Shown here: positions 1,744 to 56,657 of the stretch, one piece after another
How positions within the stretch are numbered: position 1 is the first letter of the stretch
Layout: every line of letters starts with the position of its first letter
IMG/VR virus record: IMGVR_UViG_3300033148_003082
Span: 1 to 60,193 of that record
Length of the DNA stretch: 60,193 nucleotides
From: a virus
Strand: one strand, 5' to 3'
Made by a program: the position numbers and the translations under genes
The notes under the pieces: generated by a model
The model's input: only the letters and a program-made list of their open reading frames with translations
Databases searched by the model: none
What the model was told of the DNA's origin: nothing

Positions 1744-3034
1744 AACTCAAACACTTTTATCGCTTGATGGTTTTGCCAGAGAATTAGGCATTAATCCCCT
1801 GCATTTTAATGGTGGAGTTACACCAAGTCTTGATATTCCAGTTTTTGAAGGTGGTGGATGCAGCGATATCTGGCCGCAATACGCTTGGCAGGATGCAGAC
1901 AGGGTAAGCAGAGAGCATTTAGCCATGAAAATACATAACGCAGAAATAGAAATCGCTAACTTGGTGGGTTTTTTCCCGGCGCCAATCTGGATTGAACAGG
2001 AAGTGCACAATTACCCCAGGCCGTATCCGAGAGAAGGTTATGGAAACGGGACAAATGTTAGAGGCTCAGTCAAGGGAATAAAGACAGATTACGGAAAATA
2101 TATCTCCGGAGGTCGACGGAATTTTATTGAGGTTGGAGAAGCAACTGTTGCTGGACTAGAATTAGTATATACAGACGACGATGACGATGATTTTTACGAA
2201 ACTGCTACAATAACACTTGAAATTCCAGCTGGCGTTCCAGCCAGTCCAGAAGTTTGCAATTTCAAAGTATTTTTTGATGGACAAACAGATCCTGAATGGG
2301 AAATCAGATACCCAAATACTTTTGAAATAGTAGGCGATGACATAGTATTGACTTTTGATTCTTGGTTATTTATTGATCCTGATGAGCAAGAAGGATACCC
2401 AACAGGAGATGGGTTTAGTGGAATTGATGTGTCCACAATAAACAATTTTGTTGACACTGTTGATGTTTATTATGTTTATAACGATATGGCTCAAGCGAGT
2501 GCACAGTTTATATGGGAAAGCGGATCTTCCCTTTCTTGTGATATCTGTGGGGGGCTGGGATGCGAGGCTTGCGCAATGGTTACACAAGATGGATGTGTGC
2601 AGGCAAGCATGATGGAAGATGGAATTGTTCGTCCAACGCCAGGCATATACGATGAAGATGATGCGACATGGGATATTACCAGTTTTACAGAAAACGTTGA
2701 ACCCGATATGGTAAAGCTTTGGTATTATTCTGGAGAACAGTCACAAGAGTTTGTGAAAGGAAGAACCTGTGATCCTTTATCTCGTTTTTGGGCTGATCTA
2801 ATCGCTGCTTTAGTGTGTTCAAGATTGAAAAGGAATTTATGTGATTGTCCAAGCATAAAAAACACGGTGGAATATTGGCAGAAAGATTTAGCGAAACTTG
2901 AAACAAATGTTAGTTATTTCCAAAATGACGACATTCAAAATTCGCCATTTGGAACAACAAGAGGAGAGGTGTATGCTTGGAAAAAAATTCAACACTTTGT
3001 TCCTAAAAAGAAGTTCGGGTTTGCCGTAATATGA
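1730..3034 (+). CDS. Putative head-tail or tail structural protein with a Cys-rich metal-binding loop
   Basis: 434 residues, not assigned to a named family with certainty. The middle holds CDICGGLGCEACAMV, a CxxCxGxxCxxC arrangement resembling a zinc or DnaJ-type knuckle, followed by several more cysteines (SRLKRNLCDCP). An Asp-rich patch (YTDDDDDDFYE) lies near residue 146. Position between DUF1360 and the tail tube, and the 4-base overlap with the next gene, suggest a connector or completion protein. Function is inferred from context only. Confidence 0.5.
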   Translation: MARARTQTLLSLDGFARELGINPLHFNGGVTPSLDIPVFEGGGCSDIWPQYAWQDADRVSREHLAMKIHNAEIEIANLVGFFPAPIWIEQEVHNYPRPYPREGYGNGTNVRGSVKGIKTDYGKYISGGRRNFIEVGEATVAGLELVYTDDDDDDFYETATITLEIPAGVPASPEVCNFKVFFDGQTDPEWEIRYPNTFEIVGDDIVLTFDSWLFIDPDEQEGYPTGDGFSGIDVSTINNFVDTVDVYYVYNDMAQASAQFIWESGSSLSCDICGGLGCEACAMVTQDGCVQASMMEDGIVRPTPGIYDEDDATWDITSFTENVEPDMVKLWYYSGEQSQEFVKGRTCDPLSRFWADLIAALVCSRLKRNLCDCPSIKNTVEYWQKDLAKLETNVSYFQNDDIQNSPFGTTRGEVYAWKKIQHFVPKKKFGFAVI

Positions 3035-3327
3035 AAAAAATTATATTTGAAGACGAAGAAGGATTTAAGCACAGGAAAATCATTAAAGATAATGATCCAC
3101 CTAGCATGTCAAAATATGGAATTCCTGACGGGCCGCCCGATCTAAAGCAGTTAGATATGGCTCATATATTAAAAGAGATAAATAACAACTTGGTAGCTAA
3201 TGAATTGTTTGCGTGGGATGATGTTCAAAGATTCTCTGGTGGAATCAATGCAGCGGTAAACATTTTCAGGCGAGCGATTGTTGATCTTTACAGAATAGAA
3301 AATAGAGATAAAAAGGAAAGGAGTTAA
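3031..3327 (+). CDS. Hypothetical small protein in the head-tail region
   Basis: 98 residues, mostly charged and helical, no recognised domain. It starts on an ATGA overlap with the previous stop, and the next gene follows after 2 bases with the site AAAGGAG inside its last codons. In siphoviruses this position often holds a tail terminator or completion protein, but nothing in the sequence proves it. Confidence 0.6.
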   Translation: MKKIIFEDEEGFKHRKIIKDNDPPSMSKYGIPDGPPDLKQLDMAHILKEINNNLVANELFAWDDVQRFSGGINAAVNIFRRAIVDLYRIENRDKKERS

Positions 3328-3329
3328 CT

Positions 3330-4853
3330 ATGGGTAGTCAAACCCCCCTAAAAACTGGACAGTCAAGAGTCTTTCTACTTGAAGGACGGGCTGGACCAAC
3401 TACTGAACCCAGTTACGAATCTCAACTTCGTATGACTGGGGCAAGTCAAGGCTTTGGTGATGAGGAAAAAATCGAAGCCCCGGATCCGTTGAATTACGGA
3501 AAATTCATTGAAGTTGCCACAATCAAAGGTGCTGCCGAGCGTGTTTCAACTTCTCTCGAAGGAAGATACGCCAGGGATCTTTTATCAAAACTTCTGAGAT
3601 TAGCCCAGCAGGGATGTGCCTACGATTTGCAGCTTCATCTTGGCGCTTGCACAGATCCTCAGAATTTTAATGAATTCTCAAAAGCCCTCATATTGGAAAA
3701 GGCTTCAAACACATCTTGGAATACAGATGATTTGGGTGCCTTGAGTTCAGATGAGAACGCAGGAGTAAACGAAAACGCCGACGTGTCAGCAAAAAACATT
3801 TACGAAGTCTTGCCCTTGACTTTGCAAAAACAAGCAAGTGCTACGATCACAAACGAGATAGTTGATGTTACTTATTGTGACAGCATCGGTTGTGGAGATT
3901 GTGAAAACGAAAGCGATGGATGCTCTAAGGCATATGCCATTACCAAGTGTGCTGGCGGATCGCCTGGTACTCCCGCAGATGTAGTATACACCGAGGACGG
4001 ATTTGAAAATGTTTATGCTCACGATATTGACACTTTAGGAGTGGCAGAAGATCCTACTGGATTAGATTGTGTTGGCGATTACCTCGTTGTGGTTTCTAAC
4101 GATTCCGCAAGTTTGCACTATGAGGAACTCAGTGATTTCAAAGGTGGCTTAGATCCTGTGTTTGTAGAAAGTACAACTGGATTTGTAGCTGGCGGCGAGC
4201 CCAACGACATTTTCTCTACTGGAAGAAAAGCTTTCATTGTTGGCGATTCCGGGTATGTTTACAAAACCACCGATCCTACAGCCGGTGTATCTGTAATTGA
4301 TGCTGGCGAAGCAACTGTAGACGATCTTTACAGAGTTCATGCAATCTCTGAAGAGTTTGCAGTCGCGGTTGGTGAAAATGGGGCTGTTATTTATACAGAA
4401 AATGGATCAGCTTGGGGCGCGGTTACCACTCGCCCTGTTGGAGTTGGCGTAGACCTAAATACTGTTTTCGTGAAAGACGAAAGCGAATGGTGGGTTGGCT
4501 CAAGTGGTGGACAGCTTTTTTACACCCTTGACAAAGGTGAAACGTGGTCAGAAAAGACTTTCTCCGGATCTGGGTCTGGTGAAGTTCACGATATAGTCTT
4601 TGCTACTGACAGTATTGCGTATTTGTCTCATGCTACAGATACACCTTCTGGACGGATTCTCCGCAGTTACAATGGGGGATATTCCTGGAAGGTTCTTCCC
4701 GAATCCACAGGAGTAATTCCTGTAAACGACCGTGTTAATCGTTTAGCAGTGTGCTCCACCGCAGCGTTACAGAATTCTGCCAATCATATACTTGGTGGCG
4801 GGCTTGCAGATAATGGAACAGATGGCTACCTTGTTTATGGACAGCCGGCATAA
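3330..4853 (+). CDS. Tail-tube-like protein with a C-terminal Ycf48/BNR beta-propeller
   Basis: 507 residues. The first 190 residues resemble a virion structural subunit: abundant, Ser/Thr rich, immediately upstream of the tail chaperones, where the major tail protein lies in siphoviruses. From about residue 215 onward there are repeated blades of the Ycf48/BNR type: GDSGYVYKTTDP, GENGAVIYTENG, GSSGGQLFYTLDKGETW, GRILRSYNGGYSWK. Such propellers decorate phage tails or bind glycans. A Cys-rich linker (CDSIGCGDCENESDGC) separates the two parts. Tail-tube identity is inferred from gene order; the propeller is visible directly. Confidence 0.65.
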   Translation: MGSQTPLKTGQSRVFLLEGRAGPTTEPSYESQLRMTGASQGFGDEEKIEAPDPLNYGKFIEVATIKGAAERVSTSLEGRYARDLLSKLLRLAQQGCAYDLQLHLGACTDPQNFNEFSKALILEKASNTSWNTDDLGALSSDENAGVNENADVSAKNIYEVLPLTLQKQASATITNEIVDVTYCDSIGCGDCENESDGCSKAYAITKCAGGSPGTPADVVYTEDGFENVYAHDIDTLGVAEDPTGLDCVGDYLVVVSNDSASLHYEELSDFKGGLDPVFVESTTGFVAGGEPNDIFSTGRKAFIVGDSGYVYKTTDPTAGVSVIDAGEATVDDLYRVHAISEEFAVAVGENGAVIYTENGSAWGAVTTRPVGVGVDLNTVFVKDESEWWVGSSGGQLFYTLDKGETWSEKTFSGSGSGEVHDIVFATDSIAYLSHATDTPSGRILRSYNGGYSWKVLPESTGVIPVNDRVNRLAVCSTAALQNSANHILGGGLADNGTDGYLVYGQPA

Positions 4854-19654: not shown

Positions 19655-20305
19655 CTAAATATGATTCCACGTTTTCCTGGTTACTATAACACCTATATTG
19701 GCTCGCACAACTAAAAACATTTTTCCCAGCAACTCTTGTGTAAACTTACCCGTTAAGTATAACCTTCTGATTTCTAACACGTCAGCCTCTTGCAGTTTAG
19801 CCCCATGATGTTTTTCTCCGGCAAGTCTGCCTTTATGCGCTCTTGCCATTTTTTGTTTGGTCGCCACTGAAACATGCCTACCCGAATTTGCTGCACCGAT
19901 TTTCCTTTTCGTTTCTTCTGAAAGGATTTTTCCTCTACTCGCATCTCCTATTTTCTTTTTATGTTCTTTTGATAAGGGGATTCCTCTACTCGACACTTCC
20001 GCACATAACGCCATATTGTATCCACCACTATTGTGCGTATGTGTTTTCGCGTTGTCAAGATACCACTGCTCAGCCCCTATTATTTCTTTAGGTGTTGCGT
20101 CAGGCATATTCTTAAGAATTAGAAATACGAAATTTTCCTTGCCATGCTTATTCCAGGAATTCTGTAAGTATCTGTTGGGATGCTTGTTGTGCCATAGCAT
20201 TGACTTATGATTATTCCAGCGAACCCGAAACGATTCATTTGTAGATCCAGTATAAATCTTCTGATTCACATTATTGCGGATTAAATAAACACCTTTAGAG
20301 TTCAT
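19655..20305 (-). CDS. GIY-YIG homing endonuclease with NUMOD3 motifs
   Basis: 216 residues. The N-terminus has GVYLIRNNVNQKIYTGST, the GIY-YIG core, then RVRWNNHKSML with the catalytic Arg region. Two NUMOD3 modules follow (LSKEHKKKIGDASRGK and LSEETKRKIGAANSGR), and a C-terminal helix-turn-helix ends in TRKTWNHI. It is a typical free-standing phage homing enzyme inserted just upstream of the endolysin gene. The ATG at 20305 is chosen because it lies just before the GIY strand; 20329 is an alternative. Confidence 0.88.
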   Translation of the reverse strand: MNSKGVYLIRNNVNQKIYTGSTNESFRVRWNNHKSMLWHNKHPNRYLQNSWNKHGKENFVFLILKNMPDATPKEIIGAEQWYLDNAKTHTHNSGGYNMALCAEVSSRGIPLSKEHKKKIGDASRGKILSEETKRKIGAANSGRHVSVATKQKMARAHKGRLAGEKHHGAKLQEADVLEIRRLYLTGKFTQELLGKMFLVVRANIGVIVTRKTWNHI

Positions 20306-20396
20306 GCCCTTATTGTAACATGGAAGCATTCTTTAGCGAGTTCATCACTTGTCCCTTTTTATCGTAACGTTTTCTTGCTCGATAACATTTTTCTTG

Positions 20397-32668: not shown

Positions 32669-33009
32669 TCAGTGTCATGTCCGAAATTAGGTTTTGTTTT
32701 TAAGGGGATTCGTTCTAGCCATTTAATCATACGGTCTTTACCGTATCGTTTGCAGTTTTTGCTAAAAGCCCAAAATCCATATGAAACAAACGCCTTGTAA
32801 TATTTTTTAGGTTTGTCACTATGGCAGGGACGGCATAGTAAAATCAAGTTTTCAGGATCGTCCAACCCTTTAAAATATTTTCGAGCCCAGGCTTTAGTTA
32901 TGCAAGCGTGATCGGCATCAAGGACAAGTGCAGGGCGATTACACAGTTCACACGCTCTTCCTCTTTCTTCTATTAATTTTGATTTTATGTTTTCTTTATA
33001 ATTAATAAT
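32665..33009 (-). CDS. HNH endonuclease, start codon not canonical
   Basis: About 115 residues. CELCNRPALVLDADHACIT then DDPENLILLCRPCHSDK is a clear HNH/zinc core (CxxC, DH, N, CxxCH). Upstream the frame has no ATG, GTG or TTG before a stop; the best start is ATT at 33009, preceded by AAAGGGA. The gene is adjacent to, and overlaps by a few bases, the GIY-YIG gene, so it may have lost its 5' end when that gene inserted. The domain call is firm, the start is not. Confidence 0.7.
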   Translation of the reverse strand: MINYKENIKSKLIEERGRACELCNRPALVLDADHACITKAWARKYFKGLDDPENLILLCRPCHSDKPKKYYKAFVSYGFWAFSKNCKRYGKDRMIKWLERIPLKTKPNFGHDTE

Positions 33010-34117
33010 CGGTTCCCTTTATTGGTCCCGCGACGCCTTTCCAACTTTTTCCTAAGACTATTAAACTTATGGTACTTCTTTCGATATTGTATTGTTTTGC
33101 AAGATCCGACTGTGTAATATTTTGCAATTTGTACTTGTTTCTTATTTCAAGAACTTCGTGGTTTTTCAATCTTTCGTTTTTTGTAATTGGACCACCTACA
33201 TGTTTCCATGCTTTTCCGTTTACTATTCTATTAATAACACTGCTATCAATGCCAAATTCTTTACCTAGGACTGTTTGCTTTTTGCCTAAAGCAAATTTGT
33301 TTCTTATTGAAATTACTTTTTCCTTAGACAATTTTGACGAATGAACTTTTCCGCCTTTACAAATAAAGGAATTGTTTACTATAGGACCTCCAGCTTCTTT
33401 CCAATATTTTCCTTGTAAAAGAAGGGAAACATATTGTTTTTTAATATTATATTTTTTAGATATTTCTTCTATTGACAAACGTTTATTATGGAATAATTCT
33501 CGAATTGTTTTTACTTGTCTTCTGGTGAGTTTCAATCCTTTTTCCCCCCTGCGATAATTCGCTTTATTTTTTGTTATAGGCCCTTTTACATGTTTCCATG
33601 TATCGTGTTTCACAACACACTTAATAGTAGAAGGATGCACATTGAATTCTATGGCAAGTTCCCGTTGGGTTATTTTACTGTTGGCATATTTTCTTCTTAT
33701 TTTTAACACGTCTTTTTCTGTAAGTTTTGAACACCAGCTACTTTCCCCTTCTAAGGCACTGCCAATTCTCCTTTTTGATTCTTCGGAATGGTGGTGGTCA
33801 AAAAAAGGATTCTCCTTTCCCGGCAAATTGCCACCACTGGCTTGTTTCTTTATGTTATATTGATATTTTTTTGAATCAAGATATTCTTGCTCTTTCTCAA
33901 ATCTTTCGCCAAGAGTAGACTGAGGCATTTCTAATATAACATCAAGGACAAAAACTTTTTCCCCGTATTTATTCCAAGCATTTTGCAAATATCGGTTGTC
34001 GTGGCGATTTCCATTAAGGCTATTTCTGTGTTGTTGCCATCTTCTTGGCATGTCGCAACTAGATCCTAGATATAAATGCCCATTTATTTTGTTCTTTATT
34101 TGATAAATTCCTTCCAT
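33002..34117 (-). CDS. GIY-YIG homing endonuclease with four tandem HTH repeats
   Basis: 371 residues. GIYQIKNKINGHLYLGSSCD and RRWQQHRNSLNG form the GIY-YIG nuclease (residues 1-95). A NUMOD3-like stretch follows (HHSEESKRRIGSALEG). Then four copies of an approximately 55-residue module, each with a helix-turn-helix and the ending W-K-x-(V/A)-x-G-P-I (HDTWKHVKGPI, GKYWKEAGGPI, GKAWKHVGGPI, GKSWKGVAGPI). Each module probably reads a few bases of the target. Confidence 0.88.
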   Translation of the reverse strand: MEGIYQIKNKINGHLYLGSSCDMPRRWQQHRNSLNGNRHDNRYLQNAWNKYGEKVFVLDVILEMPQSTLGERFEKEQEYLDSKKYQYNIKKQASGGNLPGKENPFFDHHHSEESKRRIGSALEGESSWCSKLTEKDVLKIRRKYANSKITQRELAIEFNVHPSTIKCVVKHDTWKHVKGPITKNKANYRRGEKGLKLTRRQVKTIRELFHNKRLSIEEISKKYNIKKQYVSLLLQGKYWKEAGGPIVNNSFICKGGKVHSSKLSKEKVISIRNKFALGKKQTVLGKEFGIDSSVINRIVNGKAWKHVGGPITKNERLKNHEVLEIRNKYKLQNITQSDLAKQYNIERSTISLIVLGKSWKGVAGPIKGTDY

Positions 34118-49129: not shown

Positions 49130-49363
49130 ATGAAAGAAAGCGTTTTATCAGAACTTCTCAGGATTGAGCATGAGTTTGACGTTAAGGTACTTTATGCTTG
49201 CGAGGCAGGAAGTAGAGCCTGGGGATTTCCTTCCATTGATAGTGATTTAGATGTTAGATTTCTTTACATAAATAGACCTGAGTGGTATTTGTCGATTGTT
49301 CAAGAACGAGACGTGATAGAAATGCCAATTTGTCATAACCTGGATATAAATTGGTGGGATTGA
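49130..49363 (+). CDS. Truncated RlaP-like nucleotidyltransferase
   Basis: 77 residues. YACEAGSRAWGFPSIDSDLD then VRFLYINRPEWYLS match the catalytic start of the DUF/RlaP nucleotidyltransferases (GS-x-A-x-G-x2-S-x-D-S-D-x-D). Full-length relatives have about 240-270 residues, so this keeps only the active-site domain. AAAGGAG before the ATG; TGATG couples it to the methyltransferase. Confidence 0.7.
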   Translation: MKESVLSELLRIEHEFDVKVLYACEAGSRAWGFPSIDSDLDVRFLYINRPEWYLSIVQERDVIEMPICHNLDINWWD

Positions 49364-51042
49364 TGAAAGTTATGACTGATTTAGTGAACGCTAACGCTTT
49401 ACACATTCCGCTCAAAGACAAGTCGGTTCAAATGTGTGTAACCAGCCCTCCTTATTGGGGGCTTCGTGATTATGGAATTGACAATCAAATTGGACTTGAG
49501 CAAACGCCGGAAGAATATGTCGAGAACATGGTTGCCGTCTTTCGTGAAGTGTGGCGGGTTCTTAGGGATGATGGCACTCTGTGGTTGAACTTAGGGGATA
49601 GTTATGGCGGTGGACACGGTGGTAACAAAACCAATTCCGTAAAACAAAGAAGCAATCAGGGAACGCAAACAGCCCCTCGTCACGGGAATATGCCAAAGCA
49701 ACTAATGGGCATACCCTGGAGAGTAGCGTTTGCATTACAGGCTGACGGCTGGTGTTTAAGAAATGAAATAATATGGCAAAAAGCGAACCCTATGCCGGAA
49801 AGCGTGAAGGATAGATGCACGAAAGCACATGAGCAAATTTTTATACTTTGCAAGTCATCTTGGGTTGGAGATATGCCTCCCAGGAGATACAAGAAAAGCA
49901 ATGCGGAATGGCTTGCCCTTTTGATTGAAACCGAGGGCAACGTAGCAATCAGAAGGTATATGCACAACAGAACAACTCCCCAACATGCTCCACAAGTTGC
50001 AGTAGCCAATTCTGACATCACTATTTTGGAATATGCAAGAAACATTACAGGAATGGGGCATATTCTGGAACGAGAAGGGACAAACAAGCCAGTATATTAT
50101 CTTCAATGGACAACAAAAGAGGCGGCCTTGGTTCTTTGGGAGTGCTTGCCGTATATGTTTGGAAAGAGGAAGCAGGCGGAATGTGCTATATGGCTTTCTC
50201 TAAGAAGAAGTAACAAAAACAAAGGCAAGAGAAGCGACATTTTTTACAAGAAAGGCAGACATTATTACTTAACAGACAAAGAAATAAAACTACGAGATGG
50301 AATTTGGCAAGCGGTAAAAGACTTAAACCAGAGCCGCCCAGCTGATCTTAGTTGGCTTACACCAATAAAAGAAGGGCGATGGAAGCCAAATAAATATTAT
50401 TATGACATGGATGCAATAAGAGAACCACATGCTCTAGCTTCATTGCCGAGGGCTTTGCGTGGATTGAGCGAAGATAACAAATGGAATAAAGTGGCACCCG
50501 GGTCCACAGCGCATACAATGAGCAAACCCAGAAAGAACAGAAGAAAAGAATGGGAACAAGAACACGGCGGGGGAGGTTCAGGATTTGATGGACATAGTGG
50601 TTATCGTGATGAAAATGGAAGATTGTTAATTAATCCAGCGGGCAGAAACAAACGCACCGTCTGGACAATCACAACAAAATCGTACAAGGGGGCACACTTC
50701 GCCACGTTTCCGCCCGAACTTCCTGAAATTTGCATCAAGGCCGGAAGCGCAGAAGGGGATATTATATTAGATCCATTCGTAGGATCAGGAACAACTTGCG
50801 TGGTAGCTAGAGATTTAGGCCGTCATTCAGTTGGATTAGATTTAAGTTTTGATTATCTTATGAACAATGCCAAGAAACGGCTAGGGTTGACACAAATGGA
50901 AGAATGGATAAACGGGGGCAAAGAAGTAGAAACAAAGATGGACGGCTTACCAATGTTTGGTGACTTGCCGTCCACAAAACATCATAAGAATATGCAAAGA
51001 AAAGATCCACATAGTTTTCACAAGGCGAGGCTAACGAAATGA
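49363..51042 (+). CDS. DNA methyltransferase with an embedded LAGLIDADG domain
   Basis: 559 residues. Motif IV TSPPYWGLRDYG near residue 30 and motif I LDPFVGSGTTCVVA near 468 place it in the N4-cytosine/N6-adenine class of beta type. Between HEQIFILCKSS (about 165) and KYYYDMDAIREPH (about 343) lies an insert with WLALLIETEGNVAI, a LAGLIDADG-like helix, and VLWECLPYMFGKRKQAECAI, the usual second half of the fold. No intein splice ends (Cys/Ser start, His-Asn end) are visible. The gene is coupled to the upstream nucleotidyltransferase. Confidence 0.88.
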   Translation: MKVMTDLVNANALHIPLKDKSVQMCVTSPPYWGLRDYGIDNQIGLEQTPEEYVENMVAVFREVWRVLRDDGTLWLNLGDSYGGGHGGNKTNSVKQRSNQGTQTAPRHGNMPKQLMGIPWRVAFALQADGWCLRNEIIWQKANPMPESVKDRCTKAHEQIFILCKSSWVGDMPPRRYKKSNAEWLALLIETEGNVAIRRYMHNRTTPQHAPQVAVANSDITILEYARNITGMGHILEREGTNKPVYYLQWTTKEAALVLWECLPYMFGKRKQAECAIWLSLRRSNKNKGKRSDIFYKKGRHYYLTDKEIKLRDGIWQAVKDLNQSRPADLSWLTPIKEGRWKPNKYYYDMDAIREPHALASLPRALRGLSEDNKWNKVAPGSTAHTMSKPRKNRRKEWEQEHGGGGSGFDGHSGYRDENGRLLINPAGRNKRTVWTITTKSYKGAHFATFPPELPEICIKAGSAEGDIILDPFVGSGTTCVVARDLGRHSVGLDLSFDYLMNNAKKRLGLTQMEEWINGGKEVETKMDGLPMFGDLPSTKHHKNMQRKDPHSFHKARLTK

Positions 51043-51106: not shown

Positions 51107-51379
51107 ATGGAGATTAAATATATTCATTTTAGAGTACCTAGTTTTGTTGGAGTAAATTTACCCAAGAATGGAAAGGTGAAACATGCAGACACTTTTCGCT
51201 ACAGCCGGAGCAGCCCACATTATTTTAAACCTTACGAAAGAGGGGGCGCAACGGTTTGTGGCATATACAGGGACGATGGAGTTCTTTTAGGAAAAGGATT
51301 AGCGATCTGTTCAATGTCTGATAACTTTTGCTACAAAACCGGAAGGGATCTTGCATTTAGTCGGGCTGTAGGATGCTGA
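51107..51379 (+). CDS. Hypothetical protein between methyltransferases
   Basis: 90 residues. YIHFRVPSFVGVNLPKNGK then FKPYERGGATVCGIYRDDG. AAGGAG before the ATG. Overlaps the C5 methyltransferase by 7 bases. A beta-rich small protein, perhaps a partner of the neighbouring enzymes. Confidence 0.55.
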   Translation: MEIKYIHFRVPSFVGVNLPKNGKVKHADTFRYSRSSPHYFKPYERGGATVCGIYRDDGVLLGKGLAICSMSDNFCYKTGRDLAFSRAVGC

Positions 51380-52563
51380 GAATGAAGCAAATTAGATTTA
51401 TAGAATTATTTGCTGGCGTGGGAGGATTTAGATATGGGTTGGAAAATGTTACAGCTTCCAAGGGGAAACAATCACTAGCAATCAGCATGGGAACACAACA
51501 ATTTACTTGTGTTTACGCAAATGAGTGGGATAAGTACGCAGCGCAAATCTACAGGAGACACTATGGAGAAATCGACACCAGAGATATTAGAGATGTTTCC
51601 GAGTTCCCGGATTTCGATTTACTCACGGCTGGATTCCCTTGTCAAGCGTTTAGCGTTGCGGGAAAGCGACTTGGATTCGAGGACACACGAGGGACACTCT
51701 TTTTTGAAATCGCTAGGATTCTCAAGTCGAAAAGACCCAGACATCTTTTGCTTGAAAACGTTAAAGGTTTGCTTAGTCACGAACAGGGAAAAACTTTCAA
51801 TACAATACTTGGGATTCTCACCGACCTGGGGTATAGAGTTGAATGGATGGTACTTAACAGCAAGCACTTCGGAGTTCCCCAGAACAGGGAACGGGTGTTC
51901 ATTATCGGACATTCTCGAAACGAATGTACCGGACAAGTATTTCCTGTCATCGGAAATGGCGGAGAAAATTCTATCGGAGTGCTCAGAGCTACTTATTACA
52001 AAGGATGGCAAACAAGGGGGCCAATGTTAAAGGAAATCACGCCACCAGGAACAATGCAGGGGTACAGAGTGTATGGCACGGAAGGAATAAGCCAAACATT
52101 AGCAAGTGAAGCAGGGGGCATGGGTGCAAAGACAGGGCTGTATGCTATTAAAAAGAACGACGGCAAAATTATACAAACAAAAGATGAAGCATTGAACTTA
52201 GATAAAAATTACCACAAAGGACTTGATAATCATGGGCAAAGGACTGGTGTATTGTGTGCTATGAGGGGACGAGAGCATGGGCAACAATTAGAACCCAGGG
52301 GTGACGAAACAAACAGTCTAACGTCAGTTGCCAAAGATAACCTTTGGATTGAAAATGCACGAATCCGCAGACTAACTCCTACAGAGTGTGCTAGATTGCA
52401 AGGATTTCTGGACAAATGGGCAGAGTTTGGAATGTTGGAAGACGGAACGATTGTAAAGATATCAGACTCGCAGCAATATAAATGTTATGGTAATGCAATT
52501 ACGACGAACGTTGTTCAAGCCATTGGCGAAGGATTACTAAAACACATAGAGGAACAAAGATGA
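51373..52563 (+). CDS. DNA cytosine-5 methyltransferase
   Basis: 396 residues (ATG 51382 is an alternative start). Motif I FIELFAGVGGFRYG, motif IV AGFPCQAFSVAG with the catalytic Cys, motif VI LLLENVKGLLSH, motif VIII FGVPQNRERVFIIGH, and motif IX/X RRLTPTECARLQGF and CYGNAITTNVV. A target-recognition region lies near 225-310. It probably protects the phage DNA from restriction. Overlaps neighbours on both sides. Confidence 0.95.
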   Translation: MLRMKQIRFIELFAGVGGFRYGLENVTASKGKQSLAISMGTQQFTCVYANEWDKYAAQIYRRHYGEIDTRDIRDVSEFPDFDLLTAGFPCQAFSVAGKRLGFEDTRGTLFFEIARILKSKRPRHLLLENVKGLLSHEQGKTFNTILGILTDLGYRVEWMVLNSKHFGVPQNRERVFIIGHSRNECTGQVFPVIGNGGENSIGVLRATYYKGWQTRGPMLKEITPPGTMQGYRVYGTEGISQTLASEAGGMGAKTGLYAIKKNDGKIIQTKDEALNLDKNYHKGLDNHGQRTGVLCAMRGREHGQQLEPRGDETNSLTSVAKDNLWIENARIRRLTPTECARLQGFLDKWAEFGMLEDGTIVKISDSQQYKCYGNAITTNVVQAIGEGLLKHIEEQR

Positions 52564-55359: not shown

Positions 55360-56631
55360 CTATTTTGGAAACTCTCTTACCATCAAATCTTCTGGAATTG
55401 CTTCTCGCTTTGACTTTGTGTTTCCTGACATTTGTTTCATAAAGAACGGCACTCCACATGTCCGACATTGATCTCTGATTGATCTTGCCCAATCCGGATG
55501 CATGTGTCTGTTGCCTGCTCCACTTTCGCCACCCGATATACACCACGAAATTCCTACCATCGATCCCCCCGTGCTATCTTGGATACTGCTTGAAACGTGA
55601 TTCCGTAATCCGGTGCTATTGTTCTTAATAACTCCTTTTTCTTGTTGCGCCTTCGGCGTATTTCCATTACCTCTTGCTCGGTCAATTTTGCCATAGAGTT
55701 CTTTACCCCCCTCTGGTTCGCACAATGACCTACTTTGAGAATTCTCGCCGCATGTTGTGCGTTCTGTGCTGGAGTTACTATCTCTAAATTTATTAATCGA
55801 TTGTCTGCCTTTTTTCCGTTTTTGTGATTCATCACCAATCCGTCCGGGATCTTTCCCTGAAAATGCAACCATACTAGACGGTGAGCTAAAGCATTGTGGC
55901 GTTTCCCCTCTATCATTGCTCTGACTTGTAGGTAACCACTTGGAAGACAATGTTCTGCCCGAACCTTCTTGCATTTGTTTGTTCGGACGCATTGATTCCA
56001 ACGATCCCATCCTCTTTTCCCTGTTCTCCATACGCGACCCTGGTCGTCTACTTCCATCTCGCCTCGAAGAACCGCTATGTAAACTTTCTCTTCTGCCTTT
56101 TTTATATTTGTCATTGATTGGATTATAGCACAAATACTGACGAATATCAATCCGCTCCAACAATGGCTCGCAGCTTGCAAAATAGATAGTTGCTGGAATT
56201 TCCAACAATAGCGGAATTCTCAAGTCAGCCATTTCCTGATTCTCTGCTGTCACGCCTAACCAAACATTAGAATATTCTTCTCCCCAATCTTCCGGCAAGC
56301 ATTGTTTTATTCTCTCAGGGCGTTTGGTCAAAATCTGGAATATCAGATGTGGGCATTTTTTAATTATTTCCCAAGCTTCGCCCCTCCATTCATCAGCTTC
56401 CTCAATAAAGAAATCGCTCCAAGAACAAACAAAAACTTTTGCCGGTTCTTTCCAATGCAATGGCTTATTGAATGTGGGAGGTTTTGATCGAACAACAACA
56501 GACGGATCTTGCCCGTATCTCTTTTTATCCCGGTACATATAACAATTTTGGCACCCGGCAGAAACCTTTTTGCACCCTTGCCATGGATTCCAAGTTGATG
56601 TGGTCCAGCTTATATTCGTGTGTTTTCCCAT
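55360..56631 (-). CDS. DUF5131 (Gp37/Gp68) protein interrupted by an HNH gene in another frame
   Basis: 423 residues from the ATG at 56631. The N-terminal part TNISWTTSTWNPWQGCKKVS, GCQNCYMYRD (CxxC), VFVCSWSDFFIEEAD and QILTKRPERI, and the C-terminal part WCISGGESGAGNRHMHPDWA and GVPFFMKQMSG, match DUF5131. Between them about 190 codons are Ser/Arg-rich and resemble no DUF5131; they overlap an HNH gene in a different frame (55554-56114). The host frame stays open throughout. Whether the long form is made or the insert is spliced is unknown. Confidence 0.8.
   Translation of the reverse strand: MGKHTNISWTTSTWNPWQGCKKVSAGCQNCYMYRDKKRYGQDPSVVVRSKPPTFNKPLHWKEPAKVFVCSWSDFFIEEADEWRGEAWEIIKKCPHLIFQILTKRPERIKQCLPEDWGEEYSNVWLGVTAENQEMADLRIPLLLEIPATIYFASCEPLLERIDIRQYLCYNPINDKYKKGRRESLHSGSSRRDGSRRPGSRMENREKRMGSLESMRPNKQMQEGSGRTLSSKWLPTSQSNDRGETPQCFSSPSSMVAFSGKDPGRIGDESQKRKKGRQSINKFRDSNSSTERTTCGENSQSRSLCEPEGGKELYGKIDRARGNGNTPKAQQEKGVIKNNSTGLRNHVSSSIQDSTGGSMVGISWCISGGESGAGNRHMHPDWARSIRDQCRTCGVPFFMKQMSGNTKSKREAIPEDLMVREFPK
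55554..56114 (-). CDS. HNH homing endonuclease nested in the DUF5131 gene
   Basis: 186 residues. VDDQGRVWRTGKRGWDRWNQ, ALAHRLVWLHFQGKIPDGLV then MNHKNGKKADNRLINLEIVT is the HNH core (H..H-N..N), and a C-terminal HTH follows (LTEQEVMEIRRRRNKKKELL). A -10 TATAAT at 56127-56122 lies 7 bases upstream of the ATG at 56114; there is no Shine-Dalgarno. It sits wholly within the DUF5131 frame. Confidence 0.85.
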   Translation of the reverse strand: MTNIKKAEEKVYIAVLRGEMEVDDQGRVWRTGKRGWDRWNQCVRTNKCKKVRAEHCLPSGYLQVRAMIEGKRHNALAHRLVWLHFQGKIPDGLVMNHKNGKKADNRLINLEIVTPAQNAQHAARILKVGHCANQRGVKNSMAKLTEQEVMEIRRRRNKKKELLRTIAPDYGITFQAVSKIARGDRW

Positions 56632-56657
56632 TTGCATATCTTCCTAAATCATAAATT

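Follow-up and report, generated by a model that had tools for sequence, protein, structure and literature searches.

The window analyzed here, a virus record of 60,193 bases, contains a complete ORF of 559 aa plus stop codon (49363-51042, plus strand) for a beta-class N6/N4 DNA methyltransferase (MTase) that is interrupted in frame by a 177-codon insert (49861-50391, plus strand). Based on profile comparisons and structural models, this insert is predicted to be a complete LAGLIDADG domain with the I-CreI/I-MsoI fold in the MTase reading frame. We consider it probable that the insert is a non-splicing homing endonuclease domain that is tolerated in a surface turn of the MTase and that would cleave DNA and home.

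The methyltransferase ORF and its insert

The ORF matches PF01555 (N6_N4_Mtase; E 7e-47) over residues 22-498 on either side of an unmatched middle part, as well as phrog_67 (E 2e-64). Because SPPY is close to the N terminus and DPFVGSGTT close to the C terminus, i.e., motif IV precedes motif I, the enzyme belongs to the beta class, in agreement with its predicted fold. Specifically, in Foldseek searches, the full-length model resembled the beta-class MTases M.BceJIV, MboIIA, CcrM, and RsrI across the insert (target TM scores of 0.50-0.78), while I-CreI was matched within the insert part. The N-terminal half of the MTase (49363-49860, plus strand) extends from motif IV (SPPYWG) to motif VIII (HEQIFILCKSS) and is ~45-68% identical to that of insert-free relatives. 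Downstream of the insert follow the KYYYD strand and the ordinary variable/target-recognition stretch (50392-50646, plus strand) and then the C-terminal half (50647-51042, plus strand), which contains motif X (RNKRTVW...HFATFPPELPE) and motif I (DPFVGSGTT). A C5 cytosine methyltransferase-like ORF (51373-52563, plus strand) is located shortly downstream of the hybrid MTase.

The insert reads WVGDM...GRWKPN and is located between FILCKSS and KYYYDMD. An earlier reading of the same DNA, made from the sequence only, had given these flanks correctly and had placed the insert at 49858-50390, i.e., within 3 nt of our borders. On its own, the insert matched phrog_5046 (E 3e-10), which PHROGs names "HNH endonuclease" while the homologues found here are LAGLIDADG proteins, and it matched Pfam LAGLIDADG_1 weakly (E 0.09). 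A profile of the insert and 16 homologues matched I-MsoI/I-CreI-type chains with E values of 1e-16 to 1e-19. When modeled by AlphaFold (mean pLDDT 84.6; about 95 in the core), the insert showed helices and strands in the LAGLIDADG order, and this model matched I-CreI/I-MsoI in Foldseek with a best E value of 2e-7 and target TM scores of about 0.6-0.77. Together with the family matches, these data confirm the proposal of the sequence-only reading that a LAGLIDADG domain lies in frame within a DNA methyltransferase.

In the model, the core of the domain (49894-50220, plus strand) consists of alpha-beta-beta-alpha-beta-beta-alpha plus a helix. It includes the LAGLIDADG motif LALLIETEG (49912-49938, plus strand), in which the catalytic acid E191 (49933-49935) aligns with the motif acid of I-CreI, and the second-half motif PYMFGKRKQA with the active-site-type lysine K268 (50164-50166, plus strand). 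E191 and K268, the two residues tested, are conserved in all seven inserts found. Based on its fold, its active-site lysine, and the catalytic acid at the motif end, the domain is of the single-motif I-CreI type. The insert ends in a C-terminal linker, PADLSWLTPIKEGRWKPN (50338-50391, plus strand), which in the alignments is specific to the carriers (PDLSW-PEPK-GKW in relatives) and is missing from free-standing LAGLIDADG proteins.

In 31 relatives from viral contigs, HEYIFLLSKS is directly followed by KYYYD without a gap at the point where the window has 177 codons, which is the precise in-frame insertion that the sequence-only reading expected from a comparison with domain-free relatives. 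Across the set of 130 full-length MTase ORFs, this point is uninterrupted in almost every case, and about 120 insert-free relatives are continuous there. In the full-length model, the insert occupies the turn that links the strand of motif VIII (residues 156-168) to the KYYYD strand (residues 339-342). The target-recognition region of beta-class enzymes is the variable stretch after KYYYD. This stretch is still present in the carriers, with a length within the range of insert-free relatives, and the insert, therefore, does not replace the target-recognition part. The insertion site is thus not in the variable target-recognition part, as had been proposed, but at the conserved motif VIII/KYYYD turn. 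The MTase core and its usual target-recognition stretch are thus not disrupted by the insert, which is probably tolerated because it leaves and re-enters at one turn.

Nuclease and methylase are present on one chain in type IIG enzymes, and a LAGLIDADG domain and a methylase similarly share a single chain here. Nevertheless, it is highly improbable that the hybrid is a one-chain restriction-modification enzyme, in which the LAGLIDADG domain would be the nuclease and the MTase would protect the genome: the nuclease is missing from most relatives, LAGLIDADG enzymes recognize long sites, and they have not been described in restriction systems, as argued for the methylase of phage Taj (PMC9957025).

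Search for splicing signals in the insert

Reviews place homing endonucleases in introns, in inteins, or as free-standing proteins (PMC3943268 and PMC13405050), with introns and inteins as the usual carriers (PMC3943268). We, therefore, considered that an undetected intron or an atypical intein removes the insert. No Rfam intron was detected in the window or in six carriers. Moreover, conservation at the protein level covers almost all of the 177 codons, including the carrier-specific tail, and, therefore, leaves no room for an intron core. By these two criteria, the insert contains no ribozyme core of a group I or group II intron.

An intein is expected to have Cys, Ser, or Ala as its first residue, a terminal Asn or Gln, Cys, Ser, or Thr at position +1, and a Hint fold. 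The last residue of the window insert is Asn, as in an intein, but the first residue is W, K, P, or E and the +1 residue K, P, R, or D in the carriers, and the AlphaFold model of the insert contains only the LAGLIDADG fold and linkers with no Hint fold. The contig L078 (824-3229) provides a positive contrast. It contains an apparent true intein with a LAGLIDADG domain at motif X of an MTase relative, starting with C and ending in FITGN followed by T. Because the Hint part of this intein was also missed by Pfam, a library scan alone is weak evidence, and the verdict on inteins rests on residues, size, and model. The sequence-only reading had noted that intein splice residues are lacking, which is supported by our analysis, and had named protein splicing or an mRNA intron at the borders as the finding that would refute it; judged by Rfam, the junction residues, and the insert model, neither was detected. 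We conclude that, as far as the sequence tells, the insert is not a splicing element, and cryptic splicing appears very unlikely.

Occurrence and history of homing-type inserts

We searched for carriers using degenerate DNA patterns that join MTase and LAGLIDADG motifs as well as profile searches. Homologous inserts were identified at the same point in the viral contigs L036, L046 (and the near-identical record L047), L062, and L067 and in L075, a 3-kb contig of a bacterial metagenome-assembled genome (MAG) and the only same-site carrier that is not a viral contig. Each of these five other same-site loci is one uninterrupted ORF (572, 799, 679, 642, and 531 aa). In L048 (2410-4335), a homologous LAGLIDADG domain is present in frame at a second site, between ALALQ and GWYLR, in the same MTase family. 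The matches of the degenerate patterns in genomes were mostly due to chance, with L075 as the one real case. BLAST searches with the insert only against phages and plasmids and single-protein patterns against viral contigs returned nothing. A comparison with 50,697 phage records gave no match covering 80% of the hybrid proteins and none at all to the window insert. L046 (2320-4716) and L096 (2462-4270) have in common a further long low-complexity insert before MTase motif X (ADYVGxDGxPYK...).

Free-standing relatives of the inserted domain occur in many phages. In L036, L046, and L075, the insert contains no ATG, GTG, or TTG before the motif, and the LAGLIDADG domain can, therefore, only be translated there as a fusion to the MTase. 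The window insert does have an ATG, 12 nt in. No carrier has a stop codon in the insert, and none thus has the arrangement of a free-standing homing gene with its own start and stop.

The carriers do not group together in a tree built from 57 MTases; their scattered placement involves four changes, of which the supported branches require at least two. The carriers were united as one clade in 0 of 200 bootstrap trees. Five of six carriers, i.e., all but the long-branched L067, are closer to an insert-free MTase than to any other carrier; the well-placed carriers are 60-66% identical to some insert-free MTase vs at most 59% to another carrier. On the other hand, a single carrier clade was not rejected by the AU test (p = 0.25), and an earlier, shorter tree search on more rows preferred one carrier clade. 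We favor, but do not claim, that the carriers are polyphyletic. In every pair compared, the inserts are more diverged than the host MTases (25-53% vs 39-59% identity), and they roughly track the GC3 of their genomes. Neither the greater divergence nor the GC3 match thus points to a recent spread among the phages sampled, and the inserted domains may be old residents. These patterns are likely the result of either recurrent insertion or insertion with repeated clean loss, with none of these events looking recent.

Some of these observations would also fit a domesticated domain, i.e., a LAGLIDADG fold that has ceased to home and acts as an extra module of the MTase for DNA binding, dimerization, or specificity. 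The carrier-specific linker PDLSW-PEPK-GRW is conserved, the same site is retained across distant lineages, the divergence of the inserts goes with, and not below, that of the host enzyme, and a single origin is compatible with the AU test. However, both tested active-site residues, which would be needless for binding only, are present in all seven inserts, the ordinary target-recognition stretch remains, almost every carrier has close insert-free MTases, and the same type of domain occurs at other MTase sites (L048 and Taj_79). We, therefore, regard domestication as unlikely, albeit as the foremost alternative. The more specific version, in which the MTase took over the LAGLIDADG domain as a DNA-binding/dimerizing module that confers long-site specificity, with the nuclease gone or controlled, appears slightly less likely still.

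Alternatively, the insert could be a decayed passenger, i.e., an inserted endonuclease that has lost its cutting activity and persists only since clean in-frame loss is rare. The inserts are old and diverged, and homing endonucleases can decay once they have invaded a gene, as described in PMC13405050. However, there is no stop codon or frameshift in any of the seven insert copies, and E and K are conserved; we consider decay improbable.

The window contains additional candidate homing-type elements. A DUF5131 gene (55360-56637, minus strand; PF07505, E 1e-67) has an insert whose HNH_3 endonuclease ORF (55554-56180, minus strand) is in a frame other than that of the host gene. The DUF5131 frame is open over 186 insert codons, with 0 stop codons vs 9-16 expected, and this was reached in 0 of 20,000 shuffles under each of two null models. 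The same phage thus probably contains a hidden HNH element of the ShiLan type in a gene that does not encode a methylase; DUF5131 is not mentioned in the text of PMC11855218, which describes the ShiLan arrangement. Two further ORFs (19655-20329 and 33002-34117, both minus strand) are candidate GIY-YIG homing endonucleases. With these candidates and the HNH and LAGLIDADG domains, the phage is, judging from its predicted proteins, rich in homing genes. In the Gordonia phages Getalong and Whitney (L037 and L038; 2610-3700), a C5 methylase that is annotated as two genes (gp85/gp86 and gp80/gp81, respectively) contains a LAGLIDADG ORF in a different frame. We did not retain this methylase as a case of an open host frame because its openness was not significant (P 0.11). 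The MuF-like gene of Gordonia phage Lennon (L039; 1435-4545), which we first took to contain a LAGLIDADG insert, has an intein-like region, in which a LAGLIDADG ORF (2479-3558) runs antisense.

A probable homing domain in the methyltransferase and known systems

We favor a homing endonuclease domain in the MTase because of the I-CreI-like fold, the E and K shared by all seven inserts, the same-site inserts in distant phages, the second MTase site, and the lack of splicing signals. Of the two readings originally offered from the sequence, a homing domain that rides in the MTase is, therefore, the better supported, while reuse of the LAGLIDADG fold for target recognition gained no positive support, given that an ordinary target-recognition stretch is present and that, L067 excepted, the closest relatives are insert-free. 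In the favored scenario, one chain would be translated that still methylates, and two chains would pair via their LAGLIDADG helices. Upon co-infection by another phage, the paired domains would cut insert-free alleles of the same MTase gene at the conserved FLLxKS/KYYYD codons, and repair off the carrier would copy the insert into the cut allele. The insert would destroy the site in its own gene and so make the carrier immune, and in-frame placement at a surface turn would substitute for an intron or intein. Some beta-class enzymes, e.g., RsrI and CcrM, are able to dimerize; speculatively, MTase dimerization would aid LAGLIDADG pairing.

Non-splicing LAGLIDADG insertion in phage methylases is already known from reports of 2023-2025. 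Gosselin et al. 2023 (PMC9957025) and Arsenault et al. 2025 (PMC11855218) described lone in-frame LAGLIDADG domains without an intein or intron in nine actinophage methylases, e.g., gp79 of Mycobacterium phage Taj (Taj_79). The sequence-only reading had called both of its alternatives uncommon, which is fair for this site, but insertions of this kind have been published (PMC9957025, PMC11855218). Like the window MTase, Taj_79 is a phage N6/N4-type MTase with an in-frame LAGLIDADG domain that forms its own domain and has no detected intein or intron, and our insert profile matched Taj_79 and Mantra_64 (E 3e-11 each). The two differ in site and MTase subfamily: the Taj insert is located just after motif IV (DPPYN) and not at motif VIII/KYYYD, it comprises 139 aa and not 177 aa, and the Taj MTase is remote from the window MTase (motif-level match, 12 bits). 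Moreover, the Taj-type carriers form one F-cluster clade with apparently vertical descent, whereas the insert described here recurs in distant phages.

Other systems share part of this arrangement. The ShiLan domain with its hidden HNH (PMC11855218) is likewise a homing insert in a phage methylase that does not appear to splice and leaves the host frame open, but its endonuclease is an HNH protein in another frame, while the window MTase has a LAGLIDADG domain in the host frame. I-CreI and I-MsoI share the fold, the active-site acid and lysine, and the single motif, based on which the window domain is presumably dimeric; they are free proteins from group I introns, whereas the window domain is internal to an enzyme. 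Ophiostoma mitochondria have LAGLIDADG-rps3 fusions (Sethuraman et al. 2009, as cited in PMC5626475 and PMC7487136), in which a homing domain is also joined to a working host protein, but there the host is a ribosomal protein and the fusion lies within a fungal rnl group I intron. In the T4-like mobE/mobA split genes (PMC2988022), a homing gene likewise interrupts the gene of a phage enzyme and is not spliced out, but the host protein is split into two chains, in contrast to the one chain of the window MTase. What is new here is a second MTase insertion site, its recurrence in distant phages, and the probable hidden HNH insert in another gene. With these findings, the actinophage cases are joined by inserts at another site, in another MTase subfamily, and in further groups of phages; the hybrid MTase is a small, testable protein. 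The presence of the insert at the same turn in distant phages, together with the further MTase sites, supports that in-frame insertion at a surface turn is another, splicing-free route for the invasion of genes.
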